DNA of 64,000 bases, taken from contig NZ_CP109131.1 of assembly GCF_035917995.1 (NCBI RefSeq), forward strand, positions 7,998,001 through 8,062,000, in the 5' to 3' direction. The position numbers and the translations under genes were made by a program. Positions 9,338 to 22,561 of this stretch are shown here, piece by piece. The notes under the pieces are model-generated. The model was not told where the DNA came from. It did not search any database and was given only the letters and a program-made list of their open reading frames with translations. The stretch is from Streptosporangium sp. NBC_01755 (lineage in GTDB: Bacteria; Actinomycetota; Actinomycetes; Streptosporangiales; Streptosporangiaceae). Numbering within the stretch: the stretch's first letter is position 1; each line of letters starts with the position of its first letter.

Positions 9338-10363
9338 GTGAGCGCAACACCGACCGACCAAGCCATCTTCACCGAACGGCTCAGCACGTGGGCACAGACC
9401 CACTACGGGCCACAAGCGGTGGTAGGCGACGTACGCCGGATGCCGGGCAACTCCGGAATCAGCTACGGATTCGACATCACCCACCACGGCGACCGCGAGG
9501 GCCTGGTCGTACGCCTGACCCCACCCGGCGTCGTACGGCAAGGCAACACCGACATCATGCGCCAAGTCCCGCTGCTGCAGGCGCTCAAACGGGCCGGCCT
9601 GCCCGTGCCCGAGGTCCGCTGGTACGACGAGGACGAGTCATGGTTCGGCGTGCCATACCACATGGTCGAGCACATGCGCGGCACCTCCACCCACATGTTC
9701 GACAAGGGACGAGCCGAACAGATCGACGGCACCGGCCTCGAACCGGTATTCGTCGAAGCGATGGGCGTACTCGCCGCCATCCACCAGATCGACTGGCGGC
9801 GTGAGCTCCCCGGCTGGTCCACCCCCAGGGACCTGGAGGCCGAGATCTCCTTCTGGACCCCCAGCCTGCTCAAATCCGACGACCCCCAATGGATCTCCCA
9901 AGGGATGCAGATCCACGACCGGCTCCTGGCCACCAGACCCCACACCCCCCTCATGAGCATCGTCCACGGCGACTTCTACTCCAACAACTGGCTGTTCGCC
10001 GACGGAAGCCTGACCGCCGTCCTGGACTGGGAGATCGCCTCCATCGGATCACCCGGACTCGACATCGGGTGGATCTGCATGATGTACGACCCCAAGAGCT
10101 GGAGCCCGGCCCGCCACCAATGGTCCCAGTGGTCACCCGAACCGGACTTCCTCGTCGATGCCTACCTGGCCGCGGGCGGCCCCGCCGTACCCGACCTGGA
10201 CTGGTTCCGCGCCCTGGCGGGTTTTCGCCTCAGCTGCATCACCGCGATGGGCCTGCGCCTGCACCGCACCGGCCGCCGCCCCGACCCGGCCTGGGAAGTA
10301 CTCGGCGACGCCGCGCCGTACATGATGAACCGCGCCGAGGAACTGCTGGCGGGCCTTCGATGA
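9338..10363 (+). CDS. APH-fold phosphotransferase of the ACAD10/ACAD11 type
   Basis: A 341-aa small-molecule kinase of the aminoglycoside-phosphotransferase fold. The catalytic loop is HGDFYSNN (H210, D212, N217) and the metal-binding aspartate lies in VLDWEIAS (D230). Spacing and the preceding GNSGISYGFDI, RLTPPG and VPEVRW segments resemble the phosphotransferase domain of ACAD10/11 and the LvaA kinase, not antibiotic kinases. Such enzymes phosphorylate the 4-hydroxyl of 4-hydroxyacyl-CoA. GTG 9338 was chosen because AAGAAAGAGG precedes it and it gives family length; the frame is open back to 9125. An isolated 276-bp upstream gap suggests it may have a promoter or attenuation of its own. 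Confidence 0.85.
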   Translation: MSATPTDQAIFTERLSTWAQTHYGPQAVVGDVRRMPGNSGISYGFDITHHGDREGLVVRLTPPGVVRQGNTDIMRQVPLLQALKRAGLPVPEVRWYDEDESWFGVPYHMVEHMRGTSTHMFDKGRAEQIDGTGLEPVFVEAMGVLAAIHQIDWRRELPGWSTPRDLEAEISFWTPSLLKSDDPQWISQGMQIHDRLLATRPHTPLMSIVHGDFYSNNWLFADGSLTAVLDWEIASIGSPGLDIGWICMMYDPKSWSPARHQWSQWSPEPDFLVDAYLAAGGPAVPDLDWFRALAGFRLSCITAMGLRLHRTGRRPDPAWEVLGDAAPYMMNRAEELLAGLR

Positions 10364-11007
10364 GCGCCCCCGGATCACTGCCCGCCGTCCGCATCGACAG
10401 CGACCGGCGCGCCTTCGCCTGGTGCGGCGCCTGCTCCGCCTGCGACAACTGCCGCTCGGGCTGGAGCGCCTGGTGCACCACCGCACCGGCGCCCGGCCAC
10501 TGGCAACCCCTCGCCCCCCACGTGCCCCACCGTCCGCGCATGGAACACGCCCTGGCCGCGGCCCTGGGCTGCCTGGACATCCTCGCCCAGGACACCACGG
10601 CCCATCCCGGCGACACGACACTGCTGGTCCTTGGGCCGGCCCAGGTGCTCACACCCCTGCGTGTGGTCCTGGCACACGCCCGCATCGGCGCGGTACACGT
10701 CGCCGATGAGACCCTCACCGGCGACGACGAGTTCTCCCTCGCGGCGGCGAGGGCCGCGATGGCCGGACAGAGCGGCACCGGCCGCGCCGACACCATCGTC
10801 TCCCTGCGGGGACGGCTCGACCTGGCCTCCCGCTGGGTACGACGAGGCGGACGCGTGGCGAGCCTGACCTGCGCGGGGGAGACCATCATGCCCGCCCTGG
10901 ACACCCTGGTCACCCGCGAAGTGAGCATCGTGTCCCTGCGCGACCCCTGCGGCGCCATCGCCCCGCTCACCGATGCCCTCACCCGTTCAGGAGAACTCCA
11001 TGGCTGA
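10360..11007 (+). CDS. Truncated medium-chain dehydrogenase-like protein with structural zinc lobe only
   Basis: A 215-aa protein that looks like a shortened zinc alcohol dehydrogenase. Residues about 22-39 hold a cysteine cluster CGACSACDNCRSGWSAWC, like the structural-zinc lobe of medium-chain dehydrogenases, followed by a Rossmann-like strand (TTLLVLGPAQVLTPLRVVLA) with a degenerate nucleotide motif. The N-terminal catalytic domain with the GHE zinc ligand is missing. ATG overlaps the kinase stop by 4 bp and its own stop overlaps the next dehydrogenase by 8 bp, so it is translated as part of the operon and is not obviously dead. It may partner the following enzyme. Function is unknown. Confidence 0.7.
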   Translation: MSAPGSLPAVRIDSDRRAFAWCGACSACDNCRSGWSAWCTTAPAPGHWQPLAPHVPHRPRMEHALAAALGCLDILAQDTTAHPGDTTLLVLGPAQVLTPLRVVLAHARIGAVHVADETLTGDDEFSLAAARAAMAGQSGTGRADTIVSLRGRLDLASRWVRRGGRVASLTCAGETIMPALDTLVTREVSIVSLRDPCGAIAPLTDALTRSGELHG

Positions 11008-11989
11008 CCACGGCCCCCGCCGGGCACTGCTGGCCGCCCCCGGCAGGTTCCAGGTCGGCCCCGGCCCCGAAACGCCACTGGGACCCGGCGACGTGCGCCT
11101 TGCCGTACTCGCCACAGGCATCTGCGGCACCGACCTGGCCACCTACCGAAGCGGAGACGCCGACCCCCACCAGGTGCTCGGCCATGAGATCGTCGCGCAC
11201 GTCACCGAGACGGGCGGCGCCACCGACCTGCCCACCGGCACCAGGGTCATGCTGCGCCCCATGCGCTCCTGCCACCGCTGCTGGTATTGCGCCTCCGGCC
11301 ACACCCACCTGTGCGACCACTCCAAAGAACTCACCCTGTCCTTCCAACGCCCCGGAGGCTTCGCCGAGGAGGTGATCCTGCGCGACGCCGAACCCGGCGA
11401 CGCCCTACCCCTGGCCGAGGAAGCCGATATCACCGACGGCATGTGGGCCGAGCCGCTGGCCGTGGCCGTACACAGCCTGAACACCCTGGGCGGCCCGCGC
11501 CCCGCAGACCCGCTCCTGGTGATCGGCGCCGGACCTCTCGGCCTTTGCACCACCGCCGCCGCGGCCGCGCGCGGACTGAAGGTGACCGTCGTCGAACCAC
11601 GAAAGGCCCGCCACGCCACCGCCCACGCCGCCGGCGCCTCGGCGGTCCACCTGCCCCACGACCTCACCGGCCGATACCCCTGGACCGTCATTGCCGCCGG
11701 CACACCCGCCGCCCTGCGCCAGGCCATCGAGTCCACCCGGCCGGGAGGGCGGATCTCCATCACCGCCCTGGGCCCCGCCCCGGTGCCCACCCTTACCCAC
11801 CCGGTGCAGGTGAGCGGCTCGTTCGGCTACAACGACGAGGAGTTCGCCCAGGCCGCCGCGCTCATCAACGACGGCACCGTACGGCTCGGCGGCGCCGTCT
11901 CACGACGCTTCCCCCTGGCTGAGATCAACGCGGCCTTCACCTACGCCACCGAAGACCCCGAAGCGGTCAAGGTGGCCATCACCCCCTGA
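11000..11989 (+). CDS. Zinc-dependent medium-chain alcohol/polyol dehydrogenase
   Basis: A 329-aa MDR enzyme. The catalytic zinc ligands appear in ATGICGTDLATYRSG and LGHEIV; the structural lobe is reduced (MRSCHRCWYCASGHTHLC), and the NAD(P)-binding strand is VIGAGPLGLCTTAAAAARG. It would oxidise an alcohol or sugar-alcohol intermediate or reduce the corresponding ketone. Start ATG 11000 has GGAG upstream and overlaps the previous gene by 8 bp. It is the last gene of the operon, followed by a small tandem duplication of its own 3-prime end and, 450 bp on, a strong bidirectional terminator. Substrate is unknown. Confidence 0.9.
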   Translation: MADHGPRRALLAAPGRFQVGPGPETPLGPGDVRLAVLATGICGTDLATYRSGDADPHQVLGHEIVAHVTETGGATDLPTGTRVMLRPMRSCHRCWYCASGHTHLCDHSKELTLSFQRPGGFAEEVILRDAEPGDALPLAEEADITDGMWAEPLAVAVHSLNTLGGPRPADPLLVIGAGPLGLCTTAAAAARGLKVTVVEPRKARHATAHAAGASAVHLPHDLTGRYPWTVIAAGTPAALRQAIESTRPGGRISITALGPAPVPTLTHPVQVSGSFGYNDEEFAQAAALINDGTVRLGGAVSRRFPLAEINAAFTYATEDPEAVKVAITP

Positions 11990-12033
11990 CTCCGAAGCGG
12001 TCAAGGTGGCCATCACCCCCTGACCCCGAAGCG
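11958..12033 (+). repeat. 34-bp tandem duplication over the 3-prime end of the dehydrogenase gene
   Basis: A 33-bp segment beginning CCGAAGCGGTCAAGG occurs at 11958-11990 and again, unchanged, at 11992-12024, with a third 8-bp start at 12026. The period is 34 bp. The first copy contains the last codons and stop of the dehydrogenase, so the second is non-coding 3-prime sequence with a duplicate stop. Identity implies a recent replication slippage. Confidence 0.95.
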
Positions 12034-12350
12034 TGCGGGCACCTCACGGCGACGATCCGAGGTGCCCGCCCCGCCGTACGGACCCCGGCGACCGGCCCCG
12101 CGCCACCGCCGCACCGACCGCCCTGCCCCGCTCTGCCGTACGGCTCAGCCCACGCGACATTCCAGCACCTGCCCCGGCCGCTCGCCCCTTCCTGCGACGC
12201 CTGGTGATCGGCCCGCGCCACATGAAGCGCGCACCCGCACCACGCCGCCGGGAGGTAATCCCTCATGTGCATGAGATCGGCAGTGAGATCGGCACCAGCG
12301 CCGCCCGCAGGGCCTCTCCGCCTTCCCTGGCTGACACCTCCGGCTTCCTC

Positions 12351-12375
12351 GTACGACCTCGTACGACCTCGTACG
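12351..12375. repeat. Short 10-bp tandem repeat
   Basis: The decamer GTACGACCTC is present twice in tandem with a partial third copy, and CGTACGACCT recurs at 12381-12390. It lies in non-coding sequence and has no evident role. Confidence 0.8.
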
Positions 12376-12439
12376 GGTGGCGTACGACCTTCGCGCGACG
12401 CCCGGCACCGGCGGCGCTCGACCGGGGCCCGGCACGCGG

Positions 12440-12472
12440 AAGGCCTCCCTCGCCACATGCGAGGGAGGCCTT
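12440..12472. terminator. Bidirectional intrinsic terminator
   Basis: A perfect 14-bp stem (AAGGCCTCCCTCGC with its complement) encloses a 5-nt CACAT loop. It sits between the + strand operon ending at 11989 and the - strand TauE/SafE gene ending at 12508. There is no long T-run, as usual in high-GC actinobacteria. Confidence 0.85.
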
Positions 12473-12507
12473 CACGCGGAACCACGGCCGGATTCGCGCC
12501 GCCGGGC

Positions 12508-13452
12508 TCAGCTGGGGGAGCCGGCGGTCTCCTGCTCCTCGGTGCGGCGCCGCTCCTCTGCCTCGAGCGCCTCGGCCATCTCGTTGTCGCGGTCACGGCG
12601 GTACTCACGGAGCGAGTAGGCGATGGCGGCGGCCCAGATGGCGGCGATGGTGATGTAGGCGGCCGCCTGGACGCCGCCGGAGGCGTCGATCCAGTCGCTG
12701 CGCAGCAGGGTCCGCACGTTGGTCAGGACGATGACGCCGCCGACGGCGGAGCCCAGGATGCGCGGCGGGATGTGGCGGACCAGCCAGGCGGCGATGGGGG
12801 CCGCGATGACGCCGCCGAGCAGCAGGACGGCCACCCAGGAGAAGTCGATGTTCTCCGAGCCGATGCCGACGAAGAAGCCGAGGCTGGCGGCGACGGCGAC
12901 CAGGAACTCGCTGGCGTCGATGGAACCGATCACCTTGCGCGGTGCCAGGCGGCCGCTGGCCAGGATCGCCGGGGTGCCGACCGGACCCCAGCCGCCGCCG
13001 CCGGTGGCGTCGACGAATCCGGCCACCAGGCCGAGGGGGGCGAGGAAGCGCTTGCGCAGCGGCTTGCCCAGGTTGCCGCGCGGGAGGCCGAAGGCCGTGA
13101 AGCGGATCAGGACGTAGACGCCCAGCGCGAGCAGGATGATCGACATGACCGGGGCGGCGACCTCGGTGGAGAGGCCGGACAGGAAGGTGGCTCCCACGAA
13201 CGCGCCGACGGCGCCGGGGAGACCGATCTTGGCGACGACCTTCCAGTCGATGTTGTCGAAGCGCCAGTGGGACACGCCGGATGCGAGGGTCGTGCCGATC
13301 TCGGCGAGGTGGATGGTGGCCGAGGCGGCAGCGGGGTTGGTGCCGATGGCCAGGAGTAGCGTCGTCGAGGTGACACCGTAGGCCATGCCGAGGCTGCCGT
13401 CGACGAGCTGCGCCGCGAAGCCGACCAGGCCTAAGAGGATGAGCGCACGCAC
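12508..13452 (-). CDS. TauE/SafE family sulfite/organosulfonate exporter
   Basis: A 314-aa integral membrane protein with about eight hydrophobic segments and the TauE/SafE pattern: an N-terminal GxxxQLVDGSLGMAYG stretch, HLAEIGTTLASGVSHW, and an internal repeat GFVDATGGGGWGPVG. Family members export sulfite, sulfonates or sulfoacetate across the membrane. GTG 13452 is preferred over the upstream ATG because AGGAAGGGGGG precedes it and a TATAAT hexamer lies within the putative longer N-terminus. The C-terminal 30 residues are charged (EAEERRRTEEQE) and cytoplasmic. No sulfur-assimilation genes are adjacent. Substrate is not determined. Confidence 0.9.
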   Translation of the reverse strand: MRALILLGLVGFAAQLVDGSLGMAYGVTSTTLLLAIGTNPAAASATIHLAEIGTTLASGVSHWRFDNIDWKVVAKIGLPGAVGAFVGATFLSGLSTEVAAPVMSIILLALGVYVLIRFTAFGLPRGNLGKPLRKRFLAPLGLVAGFVDATGGGGWGPVGTPAILASGRLAPRKVIGSIDASEFLVAVAASLGFFVGIGSENIDFSWVAVLLLGGVIAAPIAAWLVRHIPPRILGSAVGGVIVLTNVRTLLRSDWIDASGGVQAAAYITIAAIWAAAIAYSLREYRRDRDNEMAEALEAEERRRTEEQETAGSPS

Positions 13453-16744: not shown

Positions 16745-17605
16745 TCAACTCCGGTCGAGCGCCAGGTTGAGCGCGAGGACGTTCACCGCCGGTTCGCCCA
16801 TGAAGCCTAGGGAACGGCCCGTGGTGTTCTCCGCGATCAGCTGCCTGACCCTCGCCACGGGGACTCCGCGCTCCCTGGCCACGCGGGCCGCCTGGAGTTC
16901 GGCGTAGGCGACCGAGATGTCCGGGTCGAGGCCGGAGCCACTGGCGGTGACCGCGTCGGCGGGCACGACCGCCAGGGCCGTCGTGCCGCGGACCGGAACG
17001 GTGCGGCCGACCGCGTAGTCTTCGCCGGGTCTACCGCACTCGACCCTGACACCACGGTACTCGGCGACGAACGGGGGCGTGGGGCAGGCCTGGTTGACGC
17101 TGACGGCCCTGGTCGGGGTGCCGACCGCCGGGAAGACCTTCAGCACCGCGCCGACGCCGTCCGGCGTGCAGTACGGCCTGGCCCCGGAGACGCCCTCCAG
17201 TTCCCCGACCGCCTTGGACCGGGCGCAGACCTGGGTGAGCAGGCTCCGCCTGCCCTCGCCGCCCCCGGCACCCGGGACGGGCAGGACGTCCACGATGTCC
17301 TCGGGCCCCAGGTTGCTCCCGGCGGTGGAGAGCATGTCGTAACCGTCACCGGCCACGGACGGCCGGCTCTGGAAGTACCTCCCGACGGGCCTGCCTCCGG
17401 CGTCCGTGAAGTTCTGGCCGACGATCGCGCTGCCCACGTCCCTTCCGTCCTTCTCCACGAGGGAGCCGTTGGCCCCGCCGTTGAAGGCGACCTGGGCGAT
17501 GCCGGTGACCACCAGCGGGTAGAGGGCACCGGTGAGCAGGGTCAGGGCGAGCAGCGCGCGGAGCGCGGCGAGATGCTGGCGCAGCCAGCTGGGCAGGCGT
17601 TCCAT
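16745..17605 (-). CDS. kdpC: KdpC subunit of the potassium-transporting P-type ATPase
   Basis: A 286-aa single-span subunit: membrane helix near residues 14-35 (ALLALTLLTGALYPLVVTGI), then VGQNFTD, GRYFQSRPS, GSNLGPE and the C-terminal ARVRQLIAENT with LGFMGEPAVNVLALNLAL. KdpC is the chaperone-like subunit raising the ATP affinity of KdpB. It is longer than the 190-aa enterobacterial protein owing to an insert at about residues 110-200, seen in other actinobacterial forms. ATG shares one base with the kdpB stop, so translation is coupled. Confidence 0.96.
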   Translation of the reverse strand: MERLPSWLRQHLAALRALLALTLLTGALYPLVVTGIAQVAFNGGANGSLVEKDGRDVGSAIVGQNFTDAGGRPVGRYFQSRPSVAGDGYDMLSTAGSNLGPEDIVDVLPVPGAGGGEGRRSLLTQVCARSKAVGELEGVSGARPYCTPDGVGAVLKVFPAVGTPTRAVSVNQACPTPPFVAEYRGVRVECGRPGEDYAVGRTVPVRGTTALAVVPADAVTASGSGLDPDISVAYAELQAARVARERGVPVARVRQLIAENTTGRSLGFMGEPAVNVLALNLALDRS

Positions 17606-19731
17606 TACGACATCCCCGGAAGGAACTGGATGAGCAGGTCTATCAGCTTGATGCCGATGAACGGCACGATGATGCCGCCCAGACCGTATACGTAGAGGTT
17701 GCGGCTGAGCAGCTTGGAGGCGCTGGAGGGGCGATAGCGCACCCCGCGCAGCGCGAGCGGGATCAGCGCCACGATGATGATCGCGTTGAAGACGACCGCC
17801 GACAGGATCGCCGACTGCGGACTGGACAGGCGCATGACGTTCAGCGCGTCCAGGCCCGGATAGACCGCCGCGAACATCGCCGGAATGATCGCGAAGTACT
17901 TGGCGACGTCGTTGGCGATGGAGAAGGTGGTCAGCGCGCCCCGGGTGATGAGCAGTTGCTTGCCGATCTCCACGATCTCGATGAGCTTGGTCGGGTTGGA
18001 ATCCAGGTCGACCATGTTGCCGGCTTCCTTGGCGGCCGAGGTGCCGGTGTTCATCGCCACCCCGACGTCGGCCTGCGCGAGCGCGGGGGCGTCGTTGGTG
18101 CCGTCGCCGGTCATCGCGACCAGCCGCCCGCCCTCCTGCTCCGACCTGATCAGGGCGAGTTTGTCCTCGGGGGTGGCCTCGGCCAGGAAGTCGTCCACGC
18201 CGGCCTCGTCGGCGATGGCCCTGGCGGTCAGCGGGTTGTCACCGGTGATCATGACGGTGCGGATGCCCATCCGGCGCATCTCGTCGAAGCGCTCGCGCAT
18301 GCCCTGCTTGACGACGTCCTTGAGATGGATCACCCCCAGCACCCGCGCCGTGCCGTCGGCGATCTCGCCGACGACCAGCGGGGTGCCGCCGGAGCCGGAG
18401 ACGGCGTCGACGATGCCGCCGACCGCCTCGACGGAATGGCCGCCGTGGTCGCGGACCCACTTCATCACCGCGGTGGCGGCGCCCTTGCGGACCTGACGGC
18501 CTTCGAGGTCGACGCCGCTCATCCGGGTCTGCGCGGTGAACCCGATCCACTGGGCTCGGGCGAGTTCTCCCGGCAGGCGCTCTCTCAGCCCGTGCTCCTG
18601 CTTGGCGTAGACCACGATGGAGCGGCCCTCGGGGGTCTCGTCGGCGAGGCTGGCCAGCTGTGCGGCCTCTGCCAGCTCGTCGGCGGAGACTCCGGGGGCG
18701 GTCAGGAACGCCGACGCCTGCCGGTTGCCCAGTGTGATGGTGCCGGTCTTGTCCAGCAGCAGGGTGTTGACGTCGCCGGCGGCCTCGACCGCGCGGCCGC
18801 TCATCGCCAGCACGTTGCGCTGGACCAGGCGGTCCATGCCGGCGATGCCGATCGCCGACAGCAGTGCCCCGATGGTTGTCGGAATGAGGCAGACCAGCAG
18901 CGCGACCAGCACGACACCGGTGACGCCGTCCCCGGTCAGGGCCGGTGAGTCCGGCACGCCGGGGTTCTGGGCCTTGGCGTAGATCGCCAGCGGTTGCATG
19001 GTGGCGGTGGCGACCAGGAAGATGATCGTCAGGGCGGCCAGCAGGATGTTGAGCGCGATCTCGTTGGGCGTCTTCTGCCGGTCGGCGCCCTCGACCAGGG
19101 CGATCATCCGGTCGATGAAGCTCTCTCCCGGCTTCTGGGTGATCTGCACGACGATCCGGTCGCTCAGCACCTTGGTGCCGCCGGTCACCGCCGAGCGGTC
19201 GCCGCCGGACTCGCGGATGACCGGGGCGGACTCGCCGGTGATGGCCGACTCGTCCACCGAGGCGATGCCGTCGACCACATCGCCGTCACCGGGGATGATC
19301 TCCCCGGCCTCCACGACGACGAAGTCTCCCCGCAGCAGTTCCTGAGCTTCGACGACGTCCCACTCGGTGGAGTCGCGGCCGCGCAGCCGCCGCGCCGTGG
19401 TGTCGCGCTTGGCGGCGCGCAGCGTGGCCGCCTGTGCCTTACCGCGCCCCTCGGCGACGGCCTCGGCCAGGTTGGCGGAGAGCACGGTCAGCCAGAGCCA
19501 CGCCGCGGTGGCCCAGGCGAAGAACGAGGGGGTCACCACCGCCAGCACCGTGGTGAAGACCGCGCCGATCTCGACGATCAGCATCACCGGGTTGCGCCAG
19601 AGCGTGGCCGGGTTGAGTTTCCTGAGCGCCTCGGGCAGCGATGTGATCAGCTGCCTGGGGTCGAGAAGGGTGCCGCCACTCCCGGGGGTGGGTGCACGGC
19701 CCGGCTTCTGGAGCGTCTGGGCGGACATCAT
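17605..19731 (-). CDS. kdpB: KdpB catalytic subunit of the potassium-transporting P-type ATPase
   Basis: A 708-aa P-type ATPase subunit. The phosphorylated aspartate lies in [10 protein letters not shown] near residue 325, with TGES ([10 protein letters not shown]), the nucleotide-binding region [10 protein letters not shown] and the hinge [17 protein letters not shown]. It hydrolyses ATP to drive potassium uptake through KdpA. Two consecutive ATG codons (19731 and 19728) are possible starts; the first gives a 4-bp overlap with the kdpA stop. The open frame continues upstream only as a shadow of kdpA. Expression is expected under potassium limitation. Confidence 0.97.
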
Positions 19732-21389
19732 CGGAGTCCCTCCGCGAGCGGGCCGAGCGCCAGAGCGGGCAGGAAGGTCAGCCCGACGAGGATCACCGTC
19801 ACGCCGACGACCATGCCGACGAACTGCGGCCGGTAGGTGGGCAGCGTGCCCGCGGAGACGGGCACCGGCGCCTGCACGGCCAGGGAACCGGCCAGGGCGA
19901 GCACGAAGATGATCGGCAGGAACCTGCCGAAGGCCATGCACAGGCCGAGAGCCACGTCGTACCAGGGTGTGTTGGCGGCGAGGCCGGCGAACGCGGAGCC
20001 GTTGTTGTTGGACGCGCTGGTGAAGGCGTACAGCACCTCGGAGAAGCCGTGCGGGCCGCTGTTGAGCATGCCGGCCCGCCGCTCGGCCGAGCCCATCGCC
20101 AGTGCCGTGCCGGTCAGCACCAGCACCGGCGTGACCAGGAAGTACAGCGCGGCGAACTTGATCTCGCGGGAGCCGATCCGCTTGCCCAGGTATTCGGGGG
20201 TACGGCCGACCATGAGCCCGGCCACGAAGACCGTGATCATCGTGAGCACGAGCATGCCGTACAGGCCCGCGCCGGCGCCACCGGGGGCGACCTCGCCCAG
20301 CATCATGTCGAACATCGCGATCATGCCGCCGAGCGCGGTGAACGAGTCGTGGGAGGAGTTCACCGCGCCGGTGGAGGTCAGGGTGGTGGCGGCGGCGAAG
20401 GTGGCGGAGCCGGGCACGCCGAAGCGCACCTCCTTGCCCTCCATCGCGGTGCCCACCGCCTGCGGGACCGTGCCGCCGTGGGCGACCTCCAGCCCGGTCA
20501 GCAGCGCGACGCCGGCCAGCGCCAGGATCCCCATGGTCGCGACGATCGCGTAGCCCTGCCGTCTGTCACCGACCATGCGGCCGAAGGTGCGGGGCAGCGC
20601 GAAGGGGATCAGCAGAATCGCGAAGATCTCCACCCAGTTGGTCCAGCTCGTGGCGTTCTCGAATGGGTGGGCCGAGTTCGTGTTGTAGAACCCGCCGCCG
20701 TTGTTGCCCAGCTCCTTGATGATCTCCTGGCTGGCCACCAGGCCACCGGTGATCGCCTGCGTGCCGCCGGTCAGGGTCGTCACCTCGTGCGGGGAGGCGA
20801 GGTTCTGCACCAGCCCGCCCGCCAGCAGCACGACCGCGCCGACGAGGGCGAGCGGCAGCAGGACGCGGAAGGTGCCGCGGACCAGGTCCACCCAGAAGTT
20901 GCCCAGTTCTTCGGTCTTCCTGCGGGCGAGGCCGCGGACCAGCACGATCGCCACCGCCATGCCCACCGCGGCGGACACGAAGTTCTGCACCGCCAGGCCG
21001 GACATCTGCACCAGGTGGCCCATGGTCGACTCACCGGCGTAGGCCTGCCAGTTGGTGTTGGTGACAAAGCTGACCGCGGTGTTCCACGCGACGTGGTCGG
21101 TCACCGGCGGGAGGCCCAGCGACAGGAACAGCCTGTCCTGCAGCCGCTGCAGCCCGTAGAGGAGCAGGACGGAGACCGCCGAGAACGCCAGCAGGCTGCG
21201 GGCGTAGAGGTCCCACCTCTGCTCGGCGTCCGGCCGGACGCCGACGAACCGGTAGATCACCCGCTCGGGGGCGAGGTGCCCGGTGTCGTGGTAGACGCGG
21301 TACATGTAGTCGCCCAGCGGCCGGTGGACCACCGCGAGAGCGACGACGAGGGATCCGATGAACAGGATTCCGGCTGTGCTCGACGACAT
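19728..21389 (-). CDS. kdpA: KdpA potassium-binding channel-like subunit
   Basis: A 553-aa membrane subunit with ten or so helices and the four pseudo-repeated selectivity regions of KdpA, for example [30 protein letters not shown], and [12 protein letters not shown]. It binds and translocates potassium in the KdpFABC complex. ATG shares one base with the kdpF stop (TAATG) and the stop overlaps the kdpB start, so the three genes are tightly coupled. Length and motifs are normal. Confidence 0.97.
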
Positions 21390-21813: not shown

Positions 21814-21836
21814 CGCCGTGTCGCGGTGACACGGCG
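21814..21836 (-). terminator. Hairpin following the tRNA-Pro gene
   Basis: A 9-bp perfect stem (CGCCGTGTC / GACACGGCG) with a 5-nt loop starts 4 bases after the tRNA 3-prime end on the minus strand. It is a likely terminator or processing signal; there is no T-run. Confidence 0.6.
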
Positions 21837-21840
21837 TCGT

Positions 21841-21912
21841 CGGAACGGCAGGGCTCGAACCTGCGGCCTTCCGGTCCCTGGCCGGATGCTCTTCCTGCTG
21901 AGCTACGTCCCG
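21841..21912 (-). tRNA. tRNA-Pro, anticodon AGG, with C33 (atypical)
   Basis: The minus strand folds into a full cloverleaf with regular lengths: 7-bp acceptor (CGGGACG / CGTTCCG, one G-U), TA, 4-bp D stem (GCTC/GAGC) with an 8-nt loop, A26, 5-bp anticodon stem, 7-nt loop CCAGGGA, 5-nt variable loop, 5-bp T stem and loop TTCGAGC. The anticodon is AGG. C1-G72, A73, G35 and G36 match bacterial proline identity elements. Odd points: U33 is replaced by C, adenine is at wobble position 34, which is rare for bacterial proline tRNA, and CCA is not encoded. It could be a functional accessory tRNA or one beginning to decay. Confidence 0.75.
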
Positions 21913-22033
21913 TCACGCGTCCGGGCCGGTTGGCGTGGGCCGTACCGGACGCGCTGCGGGCCTGCCGACCGGGCGGGGGTCGCCACTCCCGTCGCCGAGT
22001 CCCAGTCCCATGGCCCTCTTCTTTCAGGGCGGA

Positions 22034-22104
22034 GCCGCAGCGGGGCCTCGAACCCCGTCCTGCCGGGTGGAAGCCGGCTGCCTTACCTGTTCGGCCTCTG
22101 CGGC
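22034..22104 (-). tRNA. tRNA-Gly, anticodon UCC (divergent body)
   Basis: A second cloverleaf on the minus strand: perfect 7-bp acceptor (GCCGCAG / CTGCGGC), AG, D stem GCCG/AGGC (last pair G-A), 8-nt D loop with GG, A26, 5-bp anticodon stem, loop CTTCCAC with U33 and anticodon UCC, 4-nt variable loop, 5-bp T stem and TTCGAGG loop. C35, C36 and the discriminator U73 match glycine identity. The 3-prime end continues CCG rather than CCA. It lies 121 bp upstream of the tRNA-Pro gene on the same strand. Confidence 0.78.
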
Positions 22105-22267
22105 GTGTCTCCCGGAAGATCCCGGGCGTGAATCCTTTCGCGCCCTTTCGAAGGGAGGCCGAACGGATTCGCGTTCAAAGTGCTGCGCTGTGCAGTTGTC
22201 AATCTCGGAAAACAGCGATCCGGCTTATCGCCGTGAAAGCGGTGGTACCCGGTTGCGGAAATGGAGA

Positions 22268-22289
22268 AGCCGCCTGCGAATGGGCGGCT
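22268..22289 (-). terminator. Terminator of the 31-aa peptide gene
   Basis: A 7-bp stem (AGCCGCC/GGCGGCT, extendable by a wobble) with an 8-nt loop lies 21 bp after the peptide gene's stop, followed on the minus strand by a pyrimidine-rich TTCTCC tract. Confidence 0.6.
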
Positions 22290-22310
22290 CGACGGTTTCT
22301 CTCGCGAAGA

Positions 22311-22406
22311 TTATCCGCCTGACCACCCTGGGGCATGGCCGAAGTTGCCGAACAGGGGGAACTCAAAGAGCTTCTCCTGCCACGCCGGCGATGCGCCGTG
22401 GTTCAC
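22311..22406 (-). CDS. Orphan 31-aa peptide, strong ribosome site
   Basis: GTG 22406 is preceded by AAAAGGAG at 5-nt spacing, one of the best ribosome sites in the window. The 31-residue product starts MNHGASPAWQEKLFEF and ends in the glycine- and aromatic-rich PLFGNFGHAPGWSGG. It has no signal peptide or membrane helix. The gene stands alone: a stable hairpin precedes the ribosome site and a terminator follows the stop. I do not recognise the family. A short peptide with an aromatic/glycine C-terminus could be a signalling or RiPP-like peptide, but no modification enzyme or exporter is adjacent, so no function is assigned. Confidence 0.6.
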   Translation of the reverse strand: MNHGASPAWQEKLFEFPLFGNFGHAPGWSGG

Positions 22407-22445: not shown

Positions 22446-22561
22446 TTTGTTCATTGAAGGGCAAAGGCGGCCCCCGGCGCCAATGATTTTCACCGGGGTT
22501 TCTTTCCGGCGGTGGCCGCCGCGGCCGGCATGGAATTCACCTCGCCCGCTCACCGTTCACC

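Follow-up and report, generated by a model that had tools for sequence, protein, structure and literature searches.

The window analysed here is a stretch of 64,000 nucleotides (positions 7,998,001-8,062,000) of the 8.15 Mb one-contig genome of Streptosporangium sp. NBC_01755. On its minus strand lies a compact operon in the order promoter, upstream open reading frame (uORF), terminator, tRNA-Gly(UCC), structured RNA and, as the last gene, tRNA-Pro(AGG), with tRNA-Gly(UCC) located 118 nt upstream of tRNA-Pro(AGG) on the same strand. The parts, in window positions, are as follows.

22453-22491, minus strand: WhiB7/WblC-like promoter (GAAAAT 22491-22486, 3 nt, TGGCGC 22482-22477, 18 nt, TTCAAT 22458-22453)
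22311-22406, minus strand: uORF for a leader peptide, 31 codons with a GTG start (VNHGASPAWQEKLFEFPLFGNFGHAPGWSGG, then stop), with the ribosome site AAAAGGAG ahead
22282-22328, minus strand: candidate antiterminator, formed by the uORF end GGGUGGU (22328-22322) and GCCGCCC (22288-22282)
22266-22290, minus strand: terminator-like hairpin, AGCCGCC..GGCGGCUUCUCC
22031-22104, minus strand: tRNA-Gly(UCC) of the array type, atypical in sequence (55.2 bits, Rfam tRNA model)
21917-22033, minus strand: structured RNA of ~117 nt (101 bits with model R1), with hairpins H1 (22030-22013), H2 (21999-21969) and H3 (21952-21917) and a possible loop-loop pairing of UGGCG (21985-21981) with CGCCA (21935-21931)
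21839-21912, minus strand: tRNA-Pro(AGG) with C33 (ARAGORN and Rfam tRNA model)
21814-21836, minus strand: hairpin CGCCGUGUC-ACCGC-GACACGGCG 3' of the last tRNA, seen in the sequence, a possible operon end without a U run

The operon is flanked by kdp genes, a TauD-type dioxygenase, SnoaL and an ABC transporter. Directly downstream on the same strand come kdpA and a gene for a P-type ATPase that is probably kdpB (17605-21389, minus strand); we saw no sign of a link between these genes and the tRNA operon.

An earlier note on this DNA had described a complete tRNA-Pro(AGG) with proline identity elements, an unusual C33 and a place outside the usual tRNA complement, and our analysis bears out this description. 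The adjacent tRNA-Gly, the intervening RNA, the uORF and the attenuator are additions to what the note described. ARAGORN called the gene, and the Rfam tRNA model scored it at 59.6 bits against a gathering score of 29. C1-G72, G35-G36, G37 and A73 are all present, and every stem is intact. The anticodon loop reads C32-C33-A34-G35-G36-G37-A38 (CCAGGGA); the near-invariant U33 is absent, with C33 shared by the window, a second Streptosporangium (G013) and S. amethystogenes (G002). Pro(TGG), Pro(CGG) and Pro(GGG) occur elsewhere among the 63 tRNA matches of the genome, and the AGG gene is therefore an extra. Conservation in relatives, which the note had named as a check, was found in G013, where the tRNA-Pro is identical at 69/69 aligned bases, the first five bases differ only in ways that keep the acceptor pairing, and a tRNA-Leu(CAG) follows.

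The S. amethystogenes copy is interrupted in its T arm by an inserted element whose transposase, recognised by eye from its sequence, is of the IS110 type, and in two further genomes of the genus (G007 and G014) the gene is absent, only tRNA-Gly and the spacer being kept. Judged from these genomes, tRNA-Pro(AGG) is dispensable in Streptosporangium. Beyond the genus, Thermocatellispora carries a tRNA-Pro directly behind the structured RNA, as the window does, with the anticodon GGG and C33, and the Pro(GGG) of a 30-tRNA array in Planobispora (G100) also combines C33 with a closely similar acceptor stem. From the presence of C33 in these array tRNAs, we take it to mark the array lineage and A34 to be a change in Streptosporangium; on this comparison C33 is older than A34. 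Incipient pseudogenisation, which the note had raised, agrees with the dispensability of the gene in the genus, but C33 is common to the array tRNA-Pro of two other genera, and decay leaves the intact, conserved stems unexplained. The gene looks like a spare tRNA with an inherited oddity.

The published WblC/WhiB7 promoter layout is GAAAWY, 3 nt, TKGMNN, 16 to 19 nt, TANNNT (PMC7157823). GAAAAT-CAT-TGGCGC in the window is an exact fit to the box and -35 of this consensus, and the -10, 18 nt from the -35, is TTCAAT as against TANNNT. GAAAWYNNNTKGM matched only here within the 64-kb window (0.30 expected). A -10 of TACCGT is found in G007, G014 and most Nonomuraea loci, and the form across relatives is an AT-rich 6-mer, 3 nt, TGGCNN, 17-18 nt and TACCGT; the layout is present in 5/5 Streptosporangium and most Nonomuraea loci, and a relaxed pattern gave 12 matches in 15.4 kb upstream of the structured RNA versus 5 in 1.57 Mb elsewhere. 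The genome holds ten WhiB matches, one of which ends in the AT-hook RGRPRK and is hence WhiB7-like. In Streptomyces coelicolor, the WblC translation-stress regulon includes six tRNAs among 22 noncoding RNAs, and wblC is itself controlled by uORF attenuation (PMC7157823). The window operon resembles this regulon in promoter layout and in its predicted uORF attenuation; it differs in having leaders that match the downstream tRNAs, which we did not find reported, and its WhiB7 site is putative.

The window uORF has a strong ribosome site, and its DNA is 77% identical in S. amethystogenes, in the same frame. uORFs with strong ribosome sites number 30 in Nonomuraea and one per array elsewhere. In G013 the frame continues past the expected stop, and no clear uORF was found in G007 and G014. 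A 62-nt piece of the window folds at -26.5 kcal/mol and joins GGGUGGU, from the uORF end, to GCCGCCC in the terminator 5' arm; antiterminator and terminator compete for this arm. Similarly, the Nonomuraea uORF end CGGCUUUCCGG pairs with CCGGAAAGCCG, the 3' part of which is the terminator 5' arm; pairing holds in 97.6% of cells for the terminator and 89% for the alternative, helices that rest mostly on conserved pairing with modest covariation. The layout promoter-uORF-terminator-tRNAs-RNA recurs in Streptosporangium, Nonomuraea, Planobispora, Planomonospora, Thermocatellispora and other genera, and combines a short uORF and its ribosome site with mutually exclusive hairpins over the uORF end, as in leader-peptide attenuators.

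We compared the amino acids of the leaders with the tRNAs encoded downstream. In tests run after the pattern was noticed, and on leaders that are partly related and so not independent, the matched score of 10 leaders with 10 tRNA sets exceeded all 300,000 permutations, the own tRNA set ranked first for 8/10 leaders, and among six groups the matched leader/tRNA assignment was the best of 720. The other two reading frames of the leaders gave less or no enrichment, mostly near 1. Taken alone, the window leader has a weak excess of Gly and Pro (9/30, p 0.04), while across the relatives the leaders show the amino-acid enrichment of an attenuator uORF. For example, Nonomuraea leaders, which precede Pro and Leu tRNAs, contain 18.9% Pro and 18.7% Leu when the last five residues are excluded, compared with 6.0% and 10.3% in nearby proteins. 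The Ala/Gly-rich leader GSTAETGGLAAARALALPGAGRPSG of genome G026 stands before Ala and Gly tRNAs, that of Thermocatellispora (ESGRMQRSQPAWPVPMRIPGVPAPIGAEAGSRFQAAG) before Trp, Met, Pro, Gly, Gln and Ile tRNAs, and that of G162 (MTYEPGAEAAKCPCASPSGSSEPERTSG) before Ala, Pro, Gly, Lys, Ser, Glu and Cys tRNAs. A second spare cluster of the same genome, Met-Arg(GCG) at 8,079,960-8,080,109, has the leader MRRNHGRSRRVMRARRRMRMPREARV (L009 4819-4899), in which Met and Arg make up 15/25 residues (p 6e-9); in relatives, the Met/Arg/His-rich MLRHHHCRRRGHRVHRRMRMRFDTHM precedes Met-Arg-His and MRGHRMHGSSLSGLGSHRGT precedes Ser-Met-Arg-His. The Met-Arg leaders of this genome and its relatives use the Arg codons CGC/CGA/CGT in 78/83 cases, versus 145/260 in the background.

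The correspondence reaches an extreme on Micrococcales plasmids with arrays of 27-40 tRNAs, where 6/7 leaders (43-52 residues; Pseudarthrobacter (two), Paenarthrobacter, Arthrobacter zg-Y1110 and two Curtobacterium) contain all 20 amino acids, loci L316 and L328 being included in these counts. Random peptides of the family's composition contained all 20 kinds in 0.1-0.4% of simulated cases, and those of E. coli-like composition in 0.8-3%. The remaining leader, from A. caoxuetaonis, has 19 amino acids and lacks Cys, with tRNA-Cys outside the array. We rejected this absence as a perfect match: the plasmid carries tRNA-Cys ~9.5 kb beyond the array, so the leader is only a hint. Two other large arrays, L107 and L310 (a full tRNA array on a plasmid), have leaders with 15 kinds of amino acid, which is not exceptional; the leader of the Miltoncostaea array is ambiguous, and none was recognised before the Mycolicibacterium, Tsukamurella and Bifidobacterium arrays.

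tRNA arrays of mycobacteria, phages and plasmids have been described as divergent, redundant tRNA clusters, plasmid-borne or chromosomal, sometimes with structured RNA or tmRNA, and an anti-defence role has been suggested (PMC5966550, PMC12803027). The window operon shares with them its divergent, redundant tRNAs and the accompanying structured RNA. Arrays are dense and hold about 20 or more tRNAs, as on the plasmids (27-40), whereas the window has only two and the Planobispora/Planomonospora clusters about 5-8; the mycobacterial arrays we examined also differ from the window operon in having no recognisable leader. Leader control of arrays was not found in these two papers, nor did the literature searched, of incomplete coverage, yield tRNA arrays or operons with leader peptides.

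The structured RNA between the two tRNAs was detected by BLAST and then covariance models in 73/338 genomes and 11/68 genera of the family, the named genera being Streptosporangium, Nonomuraea, Planomonospora, Planobispora and Thermocatellispora. It was not found outside Streptosporangiaceae in order and class searches (297 genomes of the class). Across 49 distinct sequences, 94% of cells pair and 19/28 pairs have changes on both sides; in this alignment, which was fitted to the model, there are 105 compensatory cells versus 3-15 when the structure is slid, and an unfitted alignment gives lower counts (9 pairs, 68 compensatory cells versus 0-2 slid). The H2 and H3 loops UGGCG and CGCCA can pair in 29/29 sequences, a pairing that is not proven because the loop letters are almost invariant. 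Only the tRNAs exceeded a gathering score in Rfam, which had no match at the structured RNA. Planobispora and Planomonospora have the structured RNA within arrays of the order Ala-Pro-Gly-[RNA]-Gln-Gly-Leu; in Nonomuraea it is bracketed by Pro(UGG) and Leu(CAG) and follows one conserved gene block. Some Nonomuraea keep RNA and promoter without a tRNA, in some cases with the promoter fused straight to H2-H3, and this persistence suggests that the RNA is a product in its own right. It resembles GOLLD and ROOL in being a noncoding RNA beside or within tRNA arrays. Those RNAs are many hundreds of nucleotides long; the window-type RNA, by contrast, has ~117 nt and no Rfam match, is chromosomal, belongs to one bacterial family and did not turn up in the phage and viral sets that we searched. 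We regard it as a putative undescribed family, found in some of the spare-tRNA operons. A phage origin was considered and rejected, with no match in 50,697 phage records nor by pattern in IMG/VR; among the matches listed, phage matches to the whole operon reflect generic tRNA-Pro similarity. A protein partner was likewise discarded, no gene family being common to all arrays.

With its conserved RNA, uORF, alternative hairpins, promoter match and a leader/tRNA match that recurs across relatives, the locus suggests that tRNA-Pro(AGG) is probably a spare proline tRNA in a stress-inducible, leader-controlled operon descended from an actinobacterial tRNA array. We infer transcription, ribosome stalling, WhiB7 binding and use of the tRNAs in translation as its working parts. 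Under translation stress, the WhiB7/WblC-type promoter would switch the operon on, and the start of the transcript would encode a short peptide, its codons requiring the amino acids that the downstream tRNAs carry. When cognate tRNAs are plentiful, the ribosome would reach the stop codon and cover the segment able to pair with the terminator 5' arm, so that the terminator forms and transcription ends. If they run short, through being uncharged, cleaved or blocked, an early stall of the ribosome would let the uORF end pair with the terminator 5' arm, and read-through into tRNA-Gly(UCC), the structured RNA and tRNA-Pro(AGG) would supply the scarce tRNA, with WhiB7 as an added gate for translation stress. 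The suggestion in the earlier note of a tRNA for a starved codon comes close to this scheme, in that the leader looks as if it monitors how Gly and Pro codons are translated. A divergent anticodon arm (C33, A34) would be tolerable in a spare tRNA and may protect it from a nuclease or a modification fault to which the normal tRNA is subject.

Other readings of the locus account for part of these data. One is that the operon exists for the structured RNA, with the tRNAs as processing partners or passengers; the RNA does outlive the tRNAs in several Nonomuraea and related loci, some with the promoter joined to H2-H3, but the leader peptides track the tRNAs, and leaders of this type also head the Met-Arg(-His) operons and the plasmid arrays, in which this RNA was not found. 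We consider this account unlikely. We also think it rather unlikely that the operon is a decaying remnant of a mobile tRNA array from a plasmid or phage, with C33 and A34 as drift. Full arrays do occur on plasmids (L310), the unit is missing from most Streptosporangium genomes, and the S. amethystogenes copy is interrupted by the IS110-type element; nevertheless, identity between species is 93-98% for tRNA-Gly, the structured RNA and tRNA-Pro, compared with 67-80% for the leader and the leader-to-tRNA-Gly stretch, C33 is common to three genera, promoter, uORF and RNA persist, and Nonomuraea retains the unit behind one conserved gene block.

A leader responding to ribosome-targeting antibiotics generally, like those of whiB7 and other resistance genes, with incidental amino-acid content, would fit the WhiB7-like promoter and the uORF attenuation known for wblC/whiB7 (PMC7157823). 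It would leave unexplained why peptide composition fits the downstream tRNAs, including the rare Trp, Met, His and Cys, and we judge it improbable. Gly and some other tRNAs have non-translational uses elsewhere, and with the unusual anticodon loop in mind the note had also proposed a non-translational tRNA; we considered one that would feed a biosynthetic or cell-wall enzyme. This found no support: neither a tRNA-dependent biosynthetic gene nearby nor an adjoining aminoacyl-tRNA-using gene was found, the tRNA set differs between genera, and such a role seems very remote.

The stalling-dependent read-through in our preferred reading, a leader-controlled backup tRNA operon, is carried over by analogy from trp-type attenuation, in which fast uORF translation favours the terminator and a ribosome stalled for want of tRNA shifts the balance to the alternative pairing and read-through. 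These operons resemble the trp, his, leu, ilv and pheST attenuators: the uORF is short and enriched in the amino acids to be sensed (weakly so in the window leader), its end lies inside alternative hairpins, and a terminator stands ahead of the regulated genes. Here, however, the regulated genes are tRNAs and an RNA, the peptide mirrors the tRNA set, up to all 20 amino acids, and the layout has three segments, not four. The novelty lies in the combination: tRNA genes headed by cognate leader peptides, a promoter of the stress type and an RNA not described before. On balance, we lean towards widespread actinobacterial stress-induced backup tRNA operons with tRNA-reading leaders, extending to a 20-amino-acid sensor on plasmids, together with a new RNA family. 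The purpose of tRNA arrays has been open since they were described, and they have been called a putative anti-defence system without known control. A composition-matched leader gives a codon-by-codon test of what switches such an operon on (tRNA cleavage, uncharging or antibiotics), and leader control would explain the retention of divergent tRNAs such as the C33/A34 type. These findings may also add a new use of attenuation and a new structured RNA family for study.

Several further observations were made on these genomes. RNA ligase genes lie near plasmid arrays in Curtobacterium (L328 20172-21233) and Bifidobacterium (L329 9935-10972), which would fit repair of cleaved tRNAs. At the IS110-type element of S. 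amethystogenes (contig 53; L093 ~10300-12900), 2 nt (AG/CT) at the junction belong to both gene halves, an overlap that resembles the core dinucleotide of IS110 elements. Nonomuraea basaltis has two structured-RNA copies on one contig (L184 and L200), one without a tRNA, and cobalamin riboswitches (L225 3232-3439 and L226 16356-16563) lie a few kb upstream of the Nonomuraea RNA, ahead of the conserved gene block. Similarity also brought up tandem tRNA-like genes whose anticodon loops have 7-9 nt (L094-L103 and L106), which were set aside as another family; those at L094, L095, L099-L103 and L106 have the anticodons CGG, CTTT, CTTA and CTGG on a common body and occur in many genera of the family. 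In the genome of the window (G000), a partial spare tRNA-Arg(GCG) copy (8,087,730-8,087,777, L309; 92% over 48 nt) lies 7.6 kb from the Met-Arg operon. Its tRNA-Leu(UAA), (UAG) and (CAA) (L042, L044 and L051) have a short variable arm (74-76 nt), whereas Leu(GAG) and Leu(CAG) are long-armed.
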